Of a stretch of DNA of 64,000 nt, positions 25,135 through 31,717 are shown piece by piece. Every line of letters begins with the position of its first letter. The stretch's first letter is position 1. The DNA is from Microthrixaceae bacterium (GTDB lineage Bacteria; Actinomycetota; Acidimicrobiia; Acidimicrobiales; Acidimicrobilacustridaceae): the NCBI GenBank assembly GCA_947446975.1, contig CANFHM010000001.1, forward strand, positions 1 through 64,000, read 5' to 3'. The position numbers and the translations under genes are program-made. The notes below the pieces were generated by a model. It was not told the DNA's origin. It worked only from the letters and a program-made list of their open reading frames with translations, and ran no database searches.

Positions 25135-25153
25135 TCCCCGCCCGATAGGGGAA
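25135..25153. promoter_or_regulatory. Palindrome upstream of the CarH-like regulator
   Basis: TTCCCC, seven bases, GGGGAA: a perfect inverted repeat ending 17 bases before the TACGTT -10 (25171-25176). It therefore sits over the -35 region, where a repressor would act. A second TTCCCC follows at 25175-25180. It is a candidate autoregulatory operator. Confidence 0.45.
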
Positions 25154-25170: not shown

Positions 25171-25176
25171 TACGTT
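25171..25176 (+). promoter_or_regulatory. -10 element of the CarH-like operon
   Basis: TACGTT, giving a leader of about 55 bases before the ATG at 25239. The leader carries GGAAG and GAGGTG as possible ribosome sites. Confidence 0.4.
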
Positions 25177-25238: not shown

Positions 25239-26099
25239 ATGACGGCTGAGTCGATCACCCTCAATGAAGCCGCCGAGCGACTCGGCGTGCATTACATGAC
25301 CGCGTATCGCTACGTCCGCACCGGTCGCCTCCACGCCGTGAAGGTCGGAGGGGAATGGCAGGTCGGACTCGCTGATCTCGACGCCTTCACCGCTGCGGCG
25401 GCGGCACCGGCCACCGCGACCGCAGCCCGCTCCGGGCGGGCGGGCCGGGCCGGACGGGCCGACTACCACCAGCGCCTCGAGGATCGTCTCCTCGTCGGAG
25501 ATGAGAACGGCGCCTGGAGCGTCATCGAATCCGCCCTCGCCTCAGGCACCGAACCCCGCGACATCTACCTCGACGTGCTCGCCCCGGCGCTGGCCCACAT
25601 CGGTGAGGAATGGGCCGCAGGACGGGTCACGGTCGCCGAGGAGCACCGCGCCTCGGTGGTCACCCAGCGCATCATCGGACGGCTCGGCCCGCGGTTCAAC
25701 CGGCCCGGCCGCAAGCGGGGCACGATCGTCACCGGTGCGCCGCAGGGCGACCATCACAGCGTGCCCAGTTCCATGGCCTCCGATCTCCTCCGGGGGCAGG
25801 GCTTCGAGGTCATCGATCTCGGCGCCAACACCCCGGCCCAGTCGTTCCTCGACGCCCTGAGCGGCATCGACGATCTCGTGGCGGCGGGCCTGTGCGCCAC
25901 CCGCAGCGACAACGAGGCGGCCATCGAGGACACCATCGAGATGATTCACAAGAGCATCGCCTGCCCGGTGGTGCTCGGTGGTGGCGCCATCACGCCCACC
26001 ACCCGCGACTGCGGTGCCGATGTCGTCTCCTACGATCCCGGCTCGATGCTCGCTGCGTTCGAGGAACTCGCCGTCAGGAACTCCCGGTCCCGGTCGTGA
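25239..26099 (+). CDS. CarH/LitR-type cobalamin-binding light-sensing regulator
   Basis: 286 residues. Residues 5-50 are a winged helix-turn-helix of the MerR/excisionase type (AAERLGVHYMTAYRYVRTGR). Residues 78-150 form the helical cobalamin-cap domain and contain W125-x9-E135-H136, the CarH signature that packs over the 5'-deoxyadenosyl group. Residues 160-280 are a Rossmann B12 domain with QGDHHSVP (Asp171, His173 as lower ligand candidate) and VLGGGAIT. The Gly of the common DxHxxG motif is Pro here. In Thermus CarH the equivalents are W131, E141, H142 and H177. The protein should bind DNA in the dark with AdoCbl and release it in light. An Ala/Arg-rich linker (51-75) joins the halves. 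Confidence 0.85.
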   Translation: MTAESITLNEAAERLGVHYMTAYRYVRTGRLHAVKVGGEWQVGLADLDAFTAAAAAPATATAARSGRAGRAGRADYHQRLEDRLLVGDENGAWSVIESALASGTEPRDIYLDVLAPALAHIGEEWAAGRVTVAEEHRASVVTQRIIGRLGPRFNRPGRKRGTIVTGAPQGDHHSVPSSMASDLLRGQGFEVIDLGANTPAQSFLDALSGIDDLVAAGLCATRSDNEAAIEDTIEMIHKSIACPVVLGGGAITPTTRDCGADVVSYDPGSMLAAFEELAVRNSRSRS

Positions 26100-27058
26100 A
26101 CCCCCGCTCTTCGCAGAGCGCCGTCGATCAGATCCTCGAGCTGGCGATCGCCCCCAGCTGGAGCAGTGTGGGCTACGACATCCGCCGGCGGATGTTCGGC
26201 TGGGACGCCGCTGCGCTGCCCCGTCTCGACGGGAGGGTCATCGTGCTCACCGGGTTCACCTCGGGCATCGGACGGGCCGCCGCCTCTGCGCTCGGGGCGC
26301 TGGGCGCCACCCTGCATCTGGTGGGTCGCGATCCCGGTCGGGTGGCGGCCACCAGCGCCGAGCTCGCCGGTGAGGGCGTCGAGGTCTCGACGAGCATCGC
26401 CGATCTGTCCGATCTCGACGCCGTGCGGCGCATCGCCGCCGAGATCATCGAGCAGCACCCCTCGATCGATGTGCTGATCCACAATGCCGGTGCTCTCACC
26501 CGCACGTACGCCACCTCCCCCCAGGGGTACGAGACCACAGTCGCGGCGCAGGTGCTCGGTCCGTTCCTGCTCACCACCCTGCTGCTGGAACCACTGCGGG
26601 CGGCGCGGGGCCGCGTGCTCACCGTGGCCTCCGGGGGCATGTACGCCGAGCGACTCTCGGTGGCCGACCTCGAGATGACCCCGGATGACTACGACGGCGT
26701 GCGCGCCTATGCCCGGGCCAAGCGGGCCCAGGTGGAACTCACCCGTGAATGGACCCGGCGCGGCGATGGCACCGTGAGCTTCCACACCATGCATCCGGGC
26801 TGGGCCGACACCCCCGGTGTGGTCGAGTCGCTGCCGACCTTCCATCGCATCACCCGACCCTTCCTGCGGGATCCCGCGGCCGGCGCCGACACGCTCGTGT
26901 GGCTGGCGGCCGTCGATCAGGACGAGCTCGGCACCAGTGGCGGGTTCTGGCTCGACCGACGTCGACGGTCCATCAGCAAGCTGCCCTGGACCGATGCACC
27001 TGCCGGGGAGCGCTACCGGTTGTGGAGCTGGTGCACGGAGCGCACCGGACTCGACTGA
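26096..27058 (+). CDS. Short-chain dehydrogenase coupled to the CarH-like regulator
   Basis: 320 residues. Rossmann motif VLTGFTSGIGRAAA is near residue 45, IHNAG near 125, and a catalytic-type Tyr-x3-Lys in YARAKRAQ near 205. The shape resembles DHRS12/retinol-dehydrogenase-like SDRs. The first 40 residues form an extra N-terminal helix region (PSWSSVGYDIRRRMFGW), also seen in that subgroup. GTG start overlaps the regulator stop by four bases, so expression follows the regulator, and light control is expected if the regulator is a working CarH. Substrate not known; a lipid or isoprenoid alcohol or ketone is a guess from the family. Confidence 0.82.
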   Translation: MNPRSSQSAVDQILELAIAPSWSSVGYDIRRRMFGWDAAALPRLDGRVIVLTGFTSGIGRAAASALGALGATLHLVGRDPGRVAATSAELAGEGVEVSTSIADLSDLDAVRRIAAEIIEQHPSIDVLIHNAGALTRTYATSPQGYETTVAAQVLGPFLLTTLLLEPLRAARGRVLTVASGGMYAERLSVADLEMTPDDYDGVRAYARAKRAQVELTREWTRRGDGTVSFHTMHPGWADTPGVVESLPTFHRITRPFLRDPAAGADTLVWLAAVDQDELGTSGGFWLDRRRRSISKLPWTDAPAGERYRLWSWCTERTGLD

Positions 27059-28030
27059 TCAGCGGCCGTGTGGTGCCGGGGTGAGTGCGGGTCGACCCCC
27101 GAGCACCTCGATGATGTTCTCGCTGCACAGTCGCACCATGGAGGCCCGGGCCTCGGTGCTCGCCGACCCGAGATGCGGGGCCAGCAGCACGTTGTCGAGT
27201 TCGGCGAGGCCGTGGGCCAGTTCCGGTTCCCGCTCGAACACATCGAGGCCGGCGGCGGCGATGCGATGGTGCCGGAGCGCCTCGACCAGTGCCGCCTCGT
27301 CGATGAGCGCACCCCGGCCGGTGTTGATGAGCACGGCGGTGGACTTCATACGGGCGAGGGCGTCGGCGTCGATGATGCGATGGCTCTGCTCGTTGCGCGG
27401 CGCATGCAGGCTCACGAAATCCGAGGTGGCCAGCAGCTCGTCGAGCGGCAGATACTGGGCACCGAGCTCCGCTTCGATGGCGGGATCCACCCGGCGACGG
27501 TTGAAGTAGCGCACCGCCATGCCGAATCCATGGGCCCGGCGGGCCACGGCCTGACCGATCGCACCCATGCCGATGATGCCGAGCACCCGACCGGCCACCG
27601 GCTGCCCGAGCAGCTGATCCGGAGCCCAGCCCTGCCACAGGCCGGCGCGCACCATGCGCTCACCGGCGCCGAGCTGACGGGCGGCGCCCAGCAGCAGCGC
27701 CCAGGTGAGATCCGCAGTGGCCTCGGTGAGCACATCGGGTGTCGTGGTGACCTCGATGCCGCGGCGACGGGCCTCGGCGACGTCGATGTTGTCGAACCCG
27801 ACCGCATAGTTGGCGATGACCCGCAGGTTCGGTGCGGCGTCGAGCAGTGCGGCGTCGATGCGATCTGTGAGCATGCACAGCAGTGCGTCGGCGGTGGCCA
27901 CCCCGGCACGGAGTTCCGCATCGGTCATGGGGCGGTCGCGCGTGCTCATGTGCACGGTGAACCCGGCGGCCTCGAGCAGACCGGCGCCCGGTGCCGGCAG
28001 CGGCCGGGTGATCAGCACCTCGGCGCTCAT
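27059..28030 (-). CDS. D-2-hydroxyacid dehydrogenase (glyoxylate/hydroxypyruvate reductase type)
   Basis: 323 residues. Substrate loop NYAVGFDNIDV, NAD(P) motif GIIGMGAIGQAVA, NINTGRGALIDE-type Arg/Glu region and the catalytic His in LLAPHLGSAS give the full D-isomer dehydrogenase set. It reduces glyoxylate, hydroxypyruvate or a related 2-oxoacid in the cytoplasm; the cofactor loop (FNRRRVDP) with two Arg after the beta strand favours NADPH. ATGA overlap with the ECF S-component puts it at the end of the riboswitch-controlled operon. Why it belongs there is not clear. Its stop abuts the SDR stop from the other strand. Confidence 0.88.
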   Translation of the reverse strand: MSAEVLITRPLPAPGAGLLEAAGFTVHMSTRDRPMTDAELRAGVATADALLCMLTDRIDAALLDAAPNLRVIANYAVGFDNIDVAEARRRGIEVTTTPDVLTEATADLTWALLLGAARQLGAGERMVRAGLWQGWAPDQLLGQPVAGRVLGIIGMGAIGQAVARRAHGFGMAVRYFNRRRVDPAIEAELGAQYLPLDELLATSDFVSLHAPRNEQSHRIIDADALARMKSTAVLINTGRGALIDEAALVEALRHHRIAAAGLDVFEREPELAHGLAELDNVLLAPHLGSASTEARASMVRLCSENIIEVLGGRPALTPAPHGR

Positions 28031-28989
28031 GGCCGTGCCCCGGGTGCTGGTGCGTGTGCTGCAGCTGGCGCGAGTGCTGGAGCCGGTTCGTGCCCGGGTT
28101 CGGGCGTGGCGCCCGGGGAGGTCGGAGCATCGAACGAGACCGCAGCGCCGAACGCCGCCCGCCGCGAGACCCGCCGCAGCGCACCGAGGATGGGGCGGCC
28201 GGCCACGAGCAGGAACAGCGCCGTGAACACCGCCCGGGGGAGGTCGAATCCCATCGAGGTCGTGAGATGGAACGCCCAGAAGTGGCGCAGGTTCTCGGCG
28301 AGACCGGCGCCGGGCACGAACGAGATCGATGAACCGCTGCCGGTGGCGAAGGGCCAGAACCACAGGTTCAGCACGAGGCCGTAGGCCAGCGCAGCGATGG
28401 CGCCGTAGATCGCCAGCATGATGACCTCGGCCCGCCCCCGCAGCGCCGGCAGACATCCGGCGAAGAAGCCGATCCAGGCGGCACCGAACATCTGGAACGG
28501 CAGCCATGGGCCCACACCGCCGGTGAGCAGTGCCGACACGAACAGCGTGAGCGCACCCAGCACGAAGCCGAATCCCCGACCGAGCACCCGACCGGCCGGT
28601 ACCAGCAGGAAGAACACCGGCTCGAACCCCGCCACGCCACCGCTGGGGAGCCGCAGGGCCGCACCACACGCCGCCAGCACACCCAGCAGGGCCACCGCCT
28701 TGGCGTCGAGTTCGCCGTCGGCGAGTTCCGCCATGATCACGCACAGCAGCAGCGGCACGAGGATCACGAAGATCCAGGGGGCATCGCCGGAATGGGCGAG
28801 ATCGACGGCGCTGGAGCGCGAGGCGAACAGCGGCCAGCCGAACGCCACCACACCAAGTGCCGAGGCGGCCACCAGCAGGGCCGAGGCACGTCGGCGCAGC
28901 CGGATGGCGCCGCTCCCGGCCGGTGTCACCGCGGAGGAGGCGGGGGCGGGCGACGCCGGGGGCACGGTGGGTGCCGCTGCGGAGGTCAT
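28027..28989 (-). CDS. ECF transporter substrate-binding (S) component
   Basis: 320 residues, about eight hydrophobic segments (two more than the six of classical S components), with cytoplasmic basic N-terminus and a Pro/Ala-rich C-terminal tail. Conserved stretches such as LRLPSGGVAGFEPVFFLLV, GRVLGRGFGFVLGALT and GPWLPFQMFGAAWIGFFAG are those of S proteins in actinobacterial ECF clusters related to SCO2325. The S component binds the vitamin outside and delivers it through EcfT. The operon lies behind a cobalamin riboswitch, so cobalamin or a corrinoid or lower-ligand precursor is the predicted cargo. TGATG overlap with the ATPase gene. Confidence 0.82.
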   Translation of the reverse strand: MTSAAAPTVPPASPAPASSAVTPAGSGAIRLRRRASALLVAASALGVVAFGWPLFASRSSAVDLAHSGDAPWIFVILVPLLLCVIMAELADGELDAKAVALLGVLAACGAALRLPSGGVAGFEPVFFLLVPAGRVLGRGFGFVLGALTLFVSALLTGGVGPWLPFQMFGAAWIGFFAGCLPALRGRAEVIMLAIYGAIAALAYGLVLNLWFWPFATGSGSSISFVPGAGLAENLRHFWAFHLTTSMGFDLPRAVFTALFLLVAGRPILGALRRVSRRAAFGAAVSFDAPTSPGATPEPGHEPAPALAPAAAHAPAPGARP

Positions 28990-30611
28990 CAGCGCGATTC
29001 CCCGAGCGTTGCCAGCGCATCGCTGACCTCGCCGACGGTCATCCAGGTCTCCGGAGCGAGCACCTTGGCGATCTGCGGGGCGAACACCGGCGAATGCACC
29101 ACGACATCGCGGGCCGGCCCATCGGCCACGACCTCCCCCTCGGCGAGCACCACGGCCCGATGGGCCACGGCGGCCACCACCTCGACATCGTGGGTGGCCA
29201 TCACCACGGCCCGACCCTCTGCGGCGAGCCCCTCGAGCATGGCGATGAGTCGCTGCTTGGCGCCGTAGTCGAGACCGCGAGTGGGTTCGTCGAGCAGCAC
29301 CAGCGCCGGCTCGGCACCGAGCACGATGGCCAGTGCCAGCGCGAGACGCTGACCCTCGGAGAGATCGCGGGGATGAGCACGGTGATCGATGCCCGGCACG
29401 AGACGATCGAGCACCGCCCGGGTGGTGCCGGCGGCGAGATCACCATCCCGGTCGGCGGCCACACATTCGGCCGCCACCGTGTCGTGGTAGAGCAGCACGC
29501 CGTTGTCCTGCGGCACCAGACCCACCGAGCGGATGACCGAGCGAGCGGGGAGTCGATGGGGCTCCTCACCGCGCACCCGCACCTCGCCACGCTGCGGCGC
29601 CCGCAGACCGACCAGATGCGACAGCAGCGTGGACTTCCCGGCGCCGTTGCGTCCCATGAGGGCCACGACCTCACCGGCACGCACCTCGAGCTCCACATCA
29701 CTGAGCGCCGCCACCGGGCCGTACCCGGCGTGGAGTCCGGTGACACGGGCCACGATCTCGCCATGGGCGGGAGCCGAGGGCACCGGAGGGGTGAGCGGTG
29801 CGAGGCGCTCGCGCAGGTCGGCTGCGGCCCGGCGGGCATCGCGCACCGACAGCGGCAACGGCGACCAGCCGGCCACCCGGCCCAGTTCGACGATGGGCGG
29901 CACGACCACCGAACCGGCCAGGATCCGGCCGGGATCGCCGATGACGACGGGAGCGCCATCGCCGGGCACGTAGACGATGGAATCGGCGTACTGCACCACG
30001 CGCTCGAGCCGATGCTCGGCCACCAGCACCGTGATGCCGAGATCATGGACGAGTCGGGTGAGGGCGGCCAGCACCTCCTCGGCGGCGGCGGGATCGAGCG
30101 CCGAGGTGGGTTCGTCGAGCACCAGCACACGCGGCCCGGCGGTGAGCACCGCACCGATGGCCACTCGCTGCTGCTGCCCGCCCGAGAGCGTGGAGAGCGG
30201 TCGGTTGCGCAGCTCATGCAGACCGAGCAGATCGAGGACATCCTCGACCCGGCGCCGCATGATGTCGGGCGCAACACCGAGGTTCTCCATCACATGGGCG
30301 AGTTCGTCCTCGACCATGTCGGTGACGAAGCCGGCGGCGGGATCCTGGCCCACGAGGCCGACCACATCGGCGAGCTCGCGCGGTGGCACCAGCGCCGTGC
30401 TGCGTCCGCCGACGGTGACGGTGCCGGTGAGCAGGCCGCCCGAGAACCGCGGGACCAGTCCGTTGACGGCCCGCAGCAGCGTGGACTTGCCCGATCCGGT
30501 CTCACCCACCACCAGACACAGCTCCCCCTCGGGAACGGTGAAGTCCACATCGACGAGTGTGGGCGCCGGAGCGTCGGGATACGTGAACGAGACATGGTCG
30601 AAGCGGATCAT
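28989..30611 (-). CDS. Fused ECF transporter ATPase (EcfA-EcfA')
   Basis: 540 residues with two ABC ATPase halves in one chain. Half 1 (1-250): Walker A GETGSGKST, signature LSGGQQQR, VLVLDEPTSALD. Half 2 (280-540): Walker A GRNGAGKST, signature LSEGQ, LVLLDEPTRGLD. Both switch His are present (AEHRLE, ATHDVE). Q-loops are intact, so both sites look active. The fusion of the two ECF ATPases is usual in actinobacterial clusters. It powers S-component toppling through EcfT at the inner face of the membrane. ATG overlaps the ecfT stop (ATGA). Confidence 0.9.
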   Translation of the reverse strand: MIRFDHVSFTYPDAPAPTLVDVDFTVPEGELCLVVGETGSGKSTLLRAVNGLVPRFSGGLLTGTVTVGGRSTALVPPRELADVVGLVGQDPAAGFVTDMVEDELAHVMENLGVAPDIMRRRVEDVLDLLGLHELRNRPLSTLSGGQQQRVAIGAVLTAGPRVLVLDEPTSALDPAAAEEVLAALTRLVHDLGITVLVAEHRLERVVQYADSIVYVPGDGAPVVIGDPGRILAGSVVVPPIVELGRVAGWSPLPLSVRDARRAAADLRERLAPLTPPVPSAPAHGEIVARVTGLHAGYGPVAALSDVELEVRAGEVVALMGRNGAGKSTLLSHLVGLRAPQRGEVRVRGEEPHRLPARSVIRSVGLVPQDNGVLLYHDTVAAECVAADRDGDLAAGTTRAVLDRLVPGIDHRAHPRDLSEGQRLALALAIVLGAEPALVLLDEPTRGLDYGAKQRLIAMLEGLAAEGRAVVMATHDVEVVAAVAHRAVVLAEGEVVADGPARDVVVHSPVFAPQIAKVLAPETWMTVGEVSDALATLGESR

Positions 30612-31717
30612 GCGGCCACCTCGAAGCGGGGATCGAGTGTCGGTTCCAGCGGGGCGGGCGGTCGCGGCGCGAGCCATGCGGGCAGCAGCGCCACGAGGAT
30701 GCCGGCGGCGGCCACAGGAACCAGCTGAGGCACGGCCAGCGGCGATGCGGGAGGCTCGAGCACGGCGCCGGTGCGGCCGGCGATCACGATGGCCACCAGT
30801 GCCGCCACACCGCTGAGCGAGACGATCCACTCCGGCGAACGCCAGGGATCGGGGCGGTACCGGGTGCGCTCGACACCGCGACCGCTGAGCATCAGCGACG
30901 CGGTGAGGGCGACGGCGCCGGCGATGAAGGGGGGAAGTCGCAGGACCGCAGGTGCCGTGGCGTCGAGCAGTCCGTAGGCGCCCACCGCCACGAGACACAG
31001 TCCCAGCAGCATGAGCGCCGAGATGCCCCGACGGCGGGCGACCGGGATGGCGCCGCGTCGGCCGTAGCCCCGGGCGTCCATGGATGCGGCGAGCGCCACC
31101 GAACGGTCGAGGGCTCCCTCGAGCACAGGCATGGCCGAACCGGCCCAGGCCCGCACGCCGCGATCAGCCCGGCCGCGCAGCCGACGGGCATCGCGCACCT
31201 GACGCGACGCGATGATCGCCTGGGGGGCGAAGGTGAGTGCCACGGTGATGGCCACGCCCGCCTCGTAGAGCGCGGACGGCAGGGCCCGCAGCATGCGATA
31301 GGGGCTGCACAACGAGGAGGCGGCGCCGAAGCACAGCAGCACCACGGCGAGGCGGAGCCCCTGCCGGGCGGCGTCCACGAGTGCCTCGGCCGTGACCGGA
31401 CCCCCGAGGCTGACCCCCGCCGCCCAGGAGGGCAGCGTGACCGAGGGGATGGTGAACAGCGTGGTGCCCTCGATGCGCACGCCGAAGAGCATCTGGAACA
31501 CCACCCGGATGACGATGACGATGACCCCGAGGCGCAGGAAGCTGCCGAACGATCGGGCCCAGGGCGCATCGGTGCGACGGGCCGACACCACGTACGCCAC
31601 GACCACCGCGATGAGTCCGAGCAGCAGCGCGTCGGTGGTGCGCAGCGCCGTGGCGGCGAGGGCGATCGCCCAGATCCACCAGGCGCCCGGATGCAGCATG
31701 CGACGAGATGCGCTCAT
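30608..31717 (-). CDS. ECF transporter transmembrane component (EcfT/CbiQ family)
   Basis: 369 residues with N-terminal and C-terminal membrane helices and a cytoplasmic coupling region. The two coupling motifs contain Ala-Arg-Arg/Gly-type signatures: QVRDARRLRGR near residue 180 and ASMDARGYGRRG near 212, which contact the ATPases in known ECF structures. CbiQ-like proteins link S component and ATPases. The C-terminal 120 residues hold two extra hydrophobic segments and a Pro-rich end, longer than the typical 250-270 residue EcfT. ATGA overlap with the upstream secreted protein gene. Confidence 0.88.
   Translation of the reverse strand: MSASRRMLHPGAWWIWAIALAATALRTTDALLLGLIAVVVAYVVSARRTDAPWARSFGSFLRLGVIVIVIRVVFQMLFGVRIEGTTLFTIPSVTLPSWAAGVSLGGPVTAEALVDAARQGLRLAVVLLCFGAASSLCSPYRMLRALPSALYEAGVAITVALTFAPQAIIASRQVRDARRLRGRADRGVRAWAGSAMPVLEGALDRSVALAASMDARGYGRRGAIPVARRRGISALMLLGLCLVAVGAYGLLDATAPAVLRLPPFIAGAVALTASLMLSGRGVERTRYRPDPWRSPEWIVSLSGVAALVAIVIAGRTGAVLEPPASPLAVPQLVPVAAAGILVALLPAWLAPRPPAPLEPTLDPRFEVAA

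Follow-up and report, generated by a model that had tools for sequence, protein, structure and literature searches.

A putative B12-dependent photoreceptor-repressor family with an excisionase-type DNA-binding domain beside photodamage genes in Acidimicrobiia

A gene in the first 64,000 nucleotides of contig CANFHM010000001.1 from a Microthrixaceae bacterium (the whole stretch analysed, hereafter the window) codes for a regulator, REG, which probably acts as an AdoCbl photoreceptor and repressor from a lineage other than that of CarH, with the palindrome TTAGYRCTAA as its ancestral operator and photodamage genes that would be freed by light; we give this reading a probability of about 0.6. AdoCbl binding, the light response, repression and binding of the palindrome are ascribed to REG on the strength of homology, conserved residues and genome comparison. 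Members of the REG family are spread over a large group of bacteria from water and soil, mainly Acidimicrobiia. Relatives (E <= 1e-20) were present in 45 of 198 sampled Acidimicrobiia genomes and in 33 of the 37 genomes of the window's family, and two loci (L053 and L076) stem from Candidatus Dormiibacterota. Some genomes hold two or three REG paralogues (G052 C35 and C36; G197 C149). The database labels of L033, L036 and L039, given as Acidobacteria or Bifidobacterium breve, are probably wrong; the REG proteins and the gene order of these loci group with the window genome.

Domains, signature residues and fold of REG

As shown in Table 1, REG consists of a helix-turn-helix, a four-helix cap and a Rossmann B12-binding domain, all three scoring above the Pfam cut-offs (27 bits for HTH_17, 23 bits for B12-binding_2 and 32.1 bits for B12-binding). 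An earlier note on this DNA had placed the open reading frame and numbered its residues (W125, E135, H136, D171, H173 and P176) correctly, and its description of the DNA-binding half as excisionase-like instead of MerR agrees with our profile searches, in which none of the MerR models of Pfam and NCBIfam matched REG and only HTH_17 and the excisionase model did. The recognition helix, VHYMTAYRY, is conserved in all family rows. Nothing follows the B12 domain in the protein, and according to both Pfam and the structural model, a biliverdin-binding globin-like domain is absent.

Table 1. Positions of the REG and SDR genes, their promoter elements and the REG domains in the window
Feature	Position	Strand	Description and basis
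Upstream block CGCCCGATAGGG of the REG promoter	25139..25150	+	Conserved in close relatives (comparison of L001 and L125-L127)
Probable -10 of the REG-SDR promoter, TACGTT (GCTACGTTC conserved)	25171..25176	+	Inferred from upstream comparison
REG	25239..26099	+	Regulator of HTH_17 + B12-binding photoreceptor type, 286 aa
Excisionase-type helix-turn-helix, residues 7-52	25257..25394	+	HTH_17 42.0 bits, TIGR01764 41.4 bits
Four-helix cap, residues 78-149, with G122-W125 and E135-H136	25470..25685	+	B12-binding_2 59.9 bits; AlphaFold2 helices
Rossmann B12-binding domain, residues 162-268	25722..26042	+	B12-binding 36.7 bits; fold match to photocobilins, CarH and CtMerR
Overlap (GTGA) between the REG stop and the SDR start	26096..26099	+	Sequence; also in L032 and L034
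SDR, 320 aa, likely remnant of a REG-SDR-oxidase-DUF1365-CFA operon	26096..27058	+	adh_short 84.3 bits; operon comparison

The motifs GxxW, EH, GxxH and GxxxP have been proposed by Yu et al. as the mark of light-responsive B12 domains, several of which were tested (PMC11796333). REG carries this signature in full, with G122-W125 and E135-H136 followed in the Rossmann domain by G170-H173, which includes D171 and the predicted axial ligand H173, and by G195-P199. In the alignment of 81 family members, collected in a contig scan with peptide patterns of which two cover signature stretches, G122, W125, E135, H136, H173, G195 and P199 never vary, and the same invariance was observed in an alignment of 54 rows obtained from whole-genome protein searches without peptide pre-selection. 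A B12 module of the photoreceptor type, as had been proposed from the window alone, is supported. The Pro in place of Gly in DxHxxG (P176) is indeed present, but it is no peculiarity of this protein, being the family norm (65 of 81 members); the light-responsive photocobilin SasPcob has it as well (GEWHALP). The position of CarH His132 corresponds to A126 in REG and is mostly Ala across the family, so that the bis-His light state of CarH cannot form in REG. CtMerR (Arg) and the photocobilins (Gln, Tyr) also lack this His, yet they are light-responsive (PMC11796333).

It could be argued that in the lineage of the window REG no longer binds a cofactor and persists as a plain DNA-binding protein, since B12-independent paralogues of CarH are known (CarA; PMC9304148). 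This seems very improbable, as His173 and the EH pair are found in every row and REG is under purifying selection (dN/dS 0.08-0.22). An adenosyltransferase able to make AdoCbl, which an AdoCbl-dependent REG would need, is encoded in the window genome.

The AlphaFold2 model of REG (pLDDT 92.7, pTM 0.74) gave SasPcob (3.4e-15), full-length CarH (3.6e-14) and CtMerR (1.1e-13) as its best PDB matches in Foldseek; the comparison with CarH that had been put forward as a check shows a fold like that of the CarH B12 domain, alongside those of a photocobilin and CtMerR. A profile of 64 family members placed SasPcob first (E 1.9e-35), ahead of CtMerR (2.2e-28) and AbDPcob (2.6e-27), with methionine synthases next (from 1e-26) and Thermus CarH later (about 1e-18), and a single-sequence search likewise located the C-terminal half of REG among B12 domains. 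Against the NCBIfam equivalog model of CarH, REG scored 65.5, the cut-off being 400. The earlier label of a CarH-type protein had to be given up: given its DNA-binding domain, its score against the equivalog model and the rank of CarH in the profile search, REG is not a CarH member, although it probably works like one.

Among characterized proteins, photocobilins (SasPcob, 8j2w/8j2x, and AbDPcob, 8j2y; PMC10979010) share with REG the signature and the Pro after HxL, and they are the nearest to its B12 domain by profile and among the nearest by fold, but they have a globin-like biliverdin domain, in some cases together with a diguanylate cyclase, where REG has a DNA-binding helix-turn-helix. 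CtMerR of Chloracidobacterium thermophilum (8jbs/8jbt; PMC11796333) resembles REG in that its light-responsive B12 domain, which lacks His132, stands behind a DNA-binding domain; unlike that of REG, its N-terminal half is assigned to the MerR type, and its B12 part is about 26% identical to REG. CarH and class I LitR (5c8d-5c8f) coincide with REG in domain order, W-x9-EH, the axial His and a presumed dark-repressor logic, and differ from it by their MerR domain (HTH_17 in REG), their carotenoid output and His132, missing in REG. Fusions of light-type B12 domains to HTH domains are already known in general terms (PMC11796333). In the open-access literature we found no report of an HTH_17 B12-photoreceptor family or of its palindrome, and none of a B12 photoreceptor linked to imuB/dnaE2 or adjoining imuA'-imuB-dnaE2, both of which are weak evidence.

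Gene neighbourhoods of REG family members

The ORFs of 80 REG loci were clustered and named by Pfam and NCBIfam, and neighbours were counted from 3.5 kb before to 6 kb after REG. ImuB-type genes were found in 28 of the 80 loci, ImuA' in 25 and DnaE2 in 18. In 13 loci, imuA' is the first gene after REG and lies on the same strand, mostly at a distance of 9-114 nt, while in another subset REG and imuA' do not belong to one transcript because a convergent gene (cluster c265) separates them. The imu loci and their truncated members make up one 33-row clade (support 100/97). Loci in which imuA'-imuB come within about 100 nt after the regulator include L044, L046, L080, L085, L093, L103, L106 and L109, among others. 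Such REG-imuA'-imuB loci often add a Nudix gene and dnaE2, the resulting mutasome being possibly light-controlled.

Other clades have other neighbours. In one of them REG stands between a sigma-70 gene and a following DPRP-type photolyase gene, another has a whiB-REG pair with Fpg and ferrochelatase, and a further set combines the same SDR as in the window with a flavin oxidase, DUF1365 (UfaO domain) and a CFA-type methyltransferase. A photolyase gene was found near REG in L040, L050, L053 and L091, and hemB/hemL in L040 and L061; HemL matches beside the REG genes of the window clade are cross-hits to bioA and were left out of the counts. About ten of the 80 loci had no photodamage gene nearby, and several of these end at the contig end. 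On the tree, contexts group by clade (19 changes versus 47 after shuffling), and the SDR/ufa context requires at least three changes on well-supported branches. Judged by these gene arrangements, one receptor type appears with different photodamage outputs, clade by clade. Photodamage neighbours occur in most loci. The non-carotenoid output that had been suspected for the window gene is probably right.

Several of these neighbours (Fpg, ferrochelatase and the glutaredoxin-like c151) are suited to general oxidative damage and would also be expected if REG sensed cobalamin supply or redox state, alternating between AdoCbl-bound and empty or reduced and oxidised forms to govern oxidative-stress genes, with light being incidental. 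The Ala at the CarH His132 position would be in line with such a sensor, as would the scores of methionine synthase B12 domains, which fall between those of the photoreceptors and CarH. This is the main alternative to our reading, though we consider it improbable, given that the complete light signature is retained in the family, that photolyases and DPRP are specific to light damage, and that no B12 synthesis or transport gene was a recurrent neighbour of REG in the clustered loci.

In the window, REG is preceded by bioA, bioF and bioD, and downstream of REG-SDR the opposite strand carries a 2-hydroxyacid dehydrogenase gene and that of the ATPase of an ECF-type transporter. The transporter (window 28030-31717, minus strand), comprising a two-cassette ATPase and two membrane proteins without Pfam match, is close to the biotin genes and REG. 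The overlap listed in Table 1 bears out the translational coupling of the SDR that had been noticed before. This SDR begins with the GTG codon at 26096 and retains TGxxxGIG, NAG and YxxxK, as read directly from the sequence; since purifying selection continues to act on it (dN/dS 0.10 and 0.27), it has a use of its own. The complete set REG-SDR-oxidase-DUF1365-CFA was found in L038 and REG-SDR-oxidase, followed by the contig end, in L035, while the window and L032-L034 have only REG-SDR, and many genomes of the same genus have REG alone between bioD and the dehydrogenase. In L036:9868-10150 only some 94 N-terminal residues are left of the oxidase after the SDR, which marks an intermediate step in the loss of the lipid operon. 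No oxidase follows the SDR in the window, and in the window genome (88.6% complete) neither DUF1365 nor a convincing CFA-type methyltransferase was found, weak CMAS matches reaching at most 29.6 bits. By comparison with these loci, the REG-SDR pair of the window looks like the leftover of a furan-fatty-acid-type operon otherwise lost from the genome.

DUF1365 corresponds to UfaO of the furan-fatty-acid genes of the Rhodobacter sphaeroides RpoE-ChrR system (PMC7380195), and in several clades REG/SDR adjoin homologues of the oxidase and the CFA-type methyltransferase of that set; from domain and neighbourhood, these would be UfaD and UfaM. Unlike the REG loci, the R. sphaeroides genes are under a singlet-oxygen sigma/anti-sigma pair (PMC7380195). 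The light regulons of the LitR/PplR type in Pseudomonas (PMC9758184) resemble REG loci in that the regulator adjoins a photolyase, an SDR, an FAD-dependent oxidoreductase and a UfaM-type gene, but class II LitR of Pseudomonas works with LOV proteins, has a MerR-type DNA-binding domain and belongs to another phylum.

A palindrome as candidate operator

Reading of the promoters pointed to TTAGTGCTAA, which immediately precedes REG or the opening gene of a REG operon, or lies in oxidase/SDR promoters. When every 10-mer in the 500 bp before REG was counted, TTAGCACTAA was present in 13 of 72 non-redundant loci versus 0.5 expected and scored best among the 10-mers that do not belong to the coding sequence of the upstream gene; the top 10-mers (CCAGTACTGG and similar) came from that coding sequence and were set aside. 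The palindrome is scarce, with 1-4 copies per genome and 17 in total in eight genomes of 2.1-5 Mb, 9 of them upstream of REG and 2 just downstream, and since these genomes were picked for REG loci carrying the motif core, what counts as independent evidence is how few other sites there are and what these sites are. In G115 and G194 the only palindrome is the one at REG, while G052 has two TTAGTGCTAA sites, one per REG paralogue, and none elsewhere in the genome. The second palindrome of G193 is the divergent promoter of an oxidase and an SRPBCC-SDR. In L037 and L038, the palindrome TTCAGTGCTGAA stands at the REG -10, directly after a TACGTT identical to that of the window. Overlap of such sites with the -10 region argues for repression.

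Within the window's family, TTTAGCGCTAAA precedes REG in G035, and TTAGCGCTAA was found before a whiB gene that is convergent with a photolyase gene in eleven genomes, the surrounding sequence having diverged. In the window-clade genomes G000, G204, G207 and G213, every one of the seven exact TTAGCGCTAA sites lies before one or the other of two whiB genes. At G000 C7:44911-44920 (L121, L153), TTTAGCGCTAAA is situated between hemD-hemB and whiB, and the photolyase gene is convergent to whiB. The window genome has just one further exact TTAGCGCTAA, at G000 C5:36589-36598 (L120), which is before the second whiB, likewise in G204, G207 and G213.

The seven whiB sites, together with the lack of TTAGYRCTAA in the window's own REG promoter, would be explained if another regulator, for example a WhiB protein, read the palindrome and controlled REG, which would then have other sites. 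This second alternative is unlikely in our view. Most other loci have the site before REG, an oxidase or an SDR with no whiB near, and the paralogues of G052 account for every site of that genome. Moreover, among 26 readable class-wide whiB loci (four others were not readable), only three, each from the window's family, have the palindrome. As it is absent before the readable class-wide whiB orthologues outside that family, a role as a general whiB promoter element is unsupported.

The CGCCCGATAGGG block of the window promoter is partly retained in L004/L039. Word counts gave no support to an operator common to the window promoter and the imu clade, as no word was shared between them; the imu clade yielded GTYACGCA, and the window clade CGCCCGATAGGG / GCTACGTTC. 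The palindrome is absent from the REG promoters of the imu clade, where the recognition helix is the same as elsewhere. In this clade, GTYACGCAG recurs upstream of REG about 20 nt before the likely -10 (e.g. L093, L071), and the version in L093 is a perfect palindrome, CGCTGCGTTACGCAGCG, a possible clade-specific operator.

Proposed mode of action and its meaning

In the reading that we prefer, of REG as a light-released repressor, the protein would bind AdoCbl in the dark, with His173 below the cobalt and W125, E135 and H136 around the adenosyl group. AdoCbl-bound REG would oligomerise, and its excisionase-type helices would occupy promoters at or beside the -10, the palindrome TTAGYRCTAA being the putative ancestral operator. 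Light would break the Co-C bond, REG would lose its DNA and the photodamage genes would be transcribed. In the window genome, the co-transcribed partner would be the SDR, derived from the ancestral REG-SDR-oxidase-DUF1365-CFA lipid operon, and the two whiB genes are likely further targets. Points against this reading are the Ala at the CarH His132 position, the lack of the palindrome in the REG promoters of the window and the imu clade in spite of an identical recognition helix, and the roughly ten loci lacking a photodamage neighbour.

More tentatively, HTH_17 AdoCbl photoreceptor-repressors may form an undescribed class that governs the photodamage response of Acidimicrobiia, with a large clade putting imuA'-imuB-dnaE2 under direct light control. 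The relatives of REG have as neighbours photodamage genes, whose products repair or prevent harm from sunlight. In many of these relatives they include the genes of an error-prone machinery for DNA copying, and mutagenic repair may accordingly be turned on by light itself.

If this is true, a field resting largely on CarH would gain a second type of DNA binder controlled by light through B12, together with a candidate operator and a natural target set. In bacteria that are widespread and for the most part uncultivated, B12 light sensing would be tied to mutagenic lesion bypass and photolyase as well as to base-excision repair, porphyrin metabolism and the protection of membrane lipids. This reading also raises the question of whether error-prone repair is switched on by seeing light or by sensing DNA damage: in these organisms, light could raise lesion bypass and mutation before, or independently of, the SOS response.
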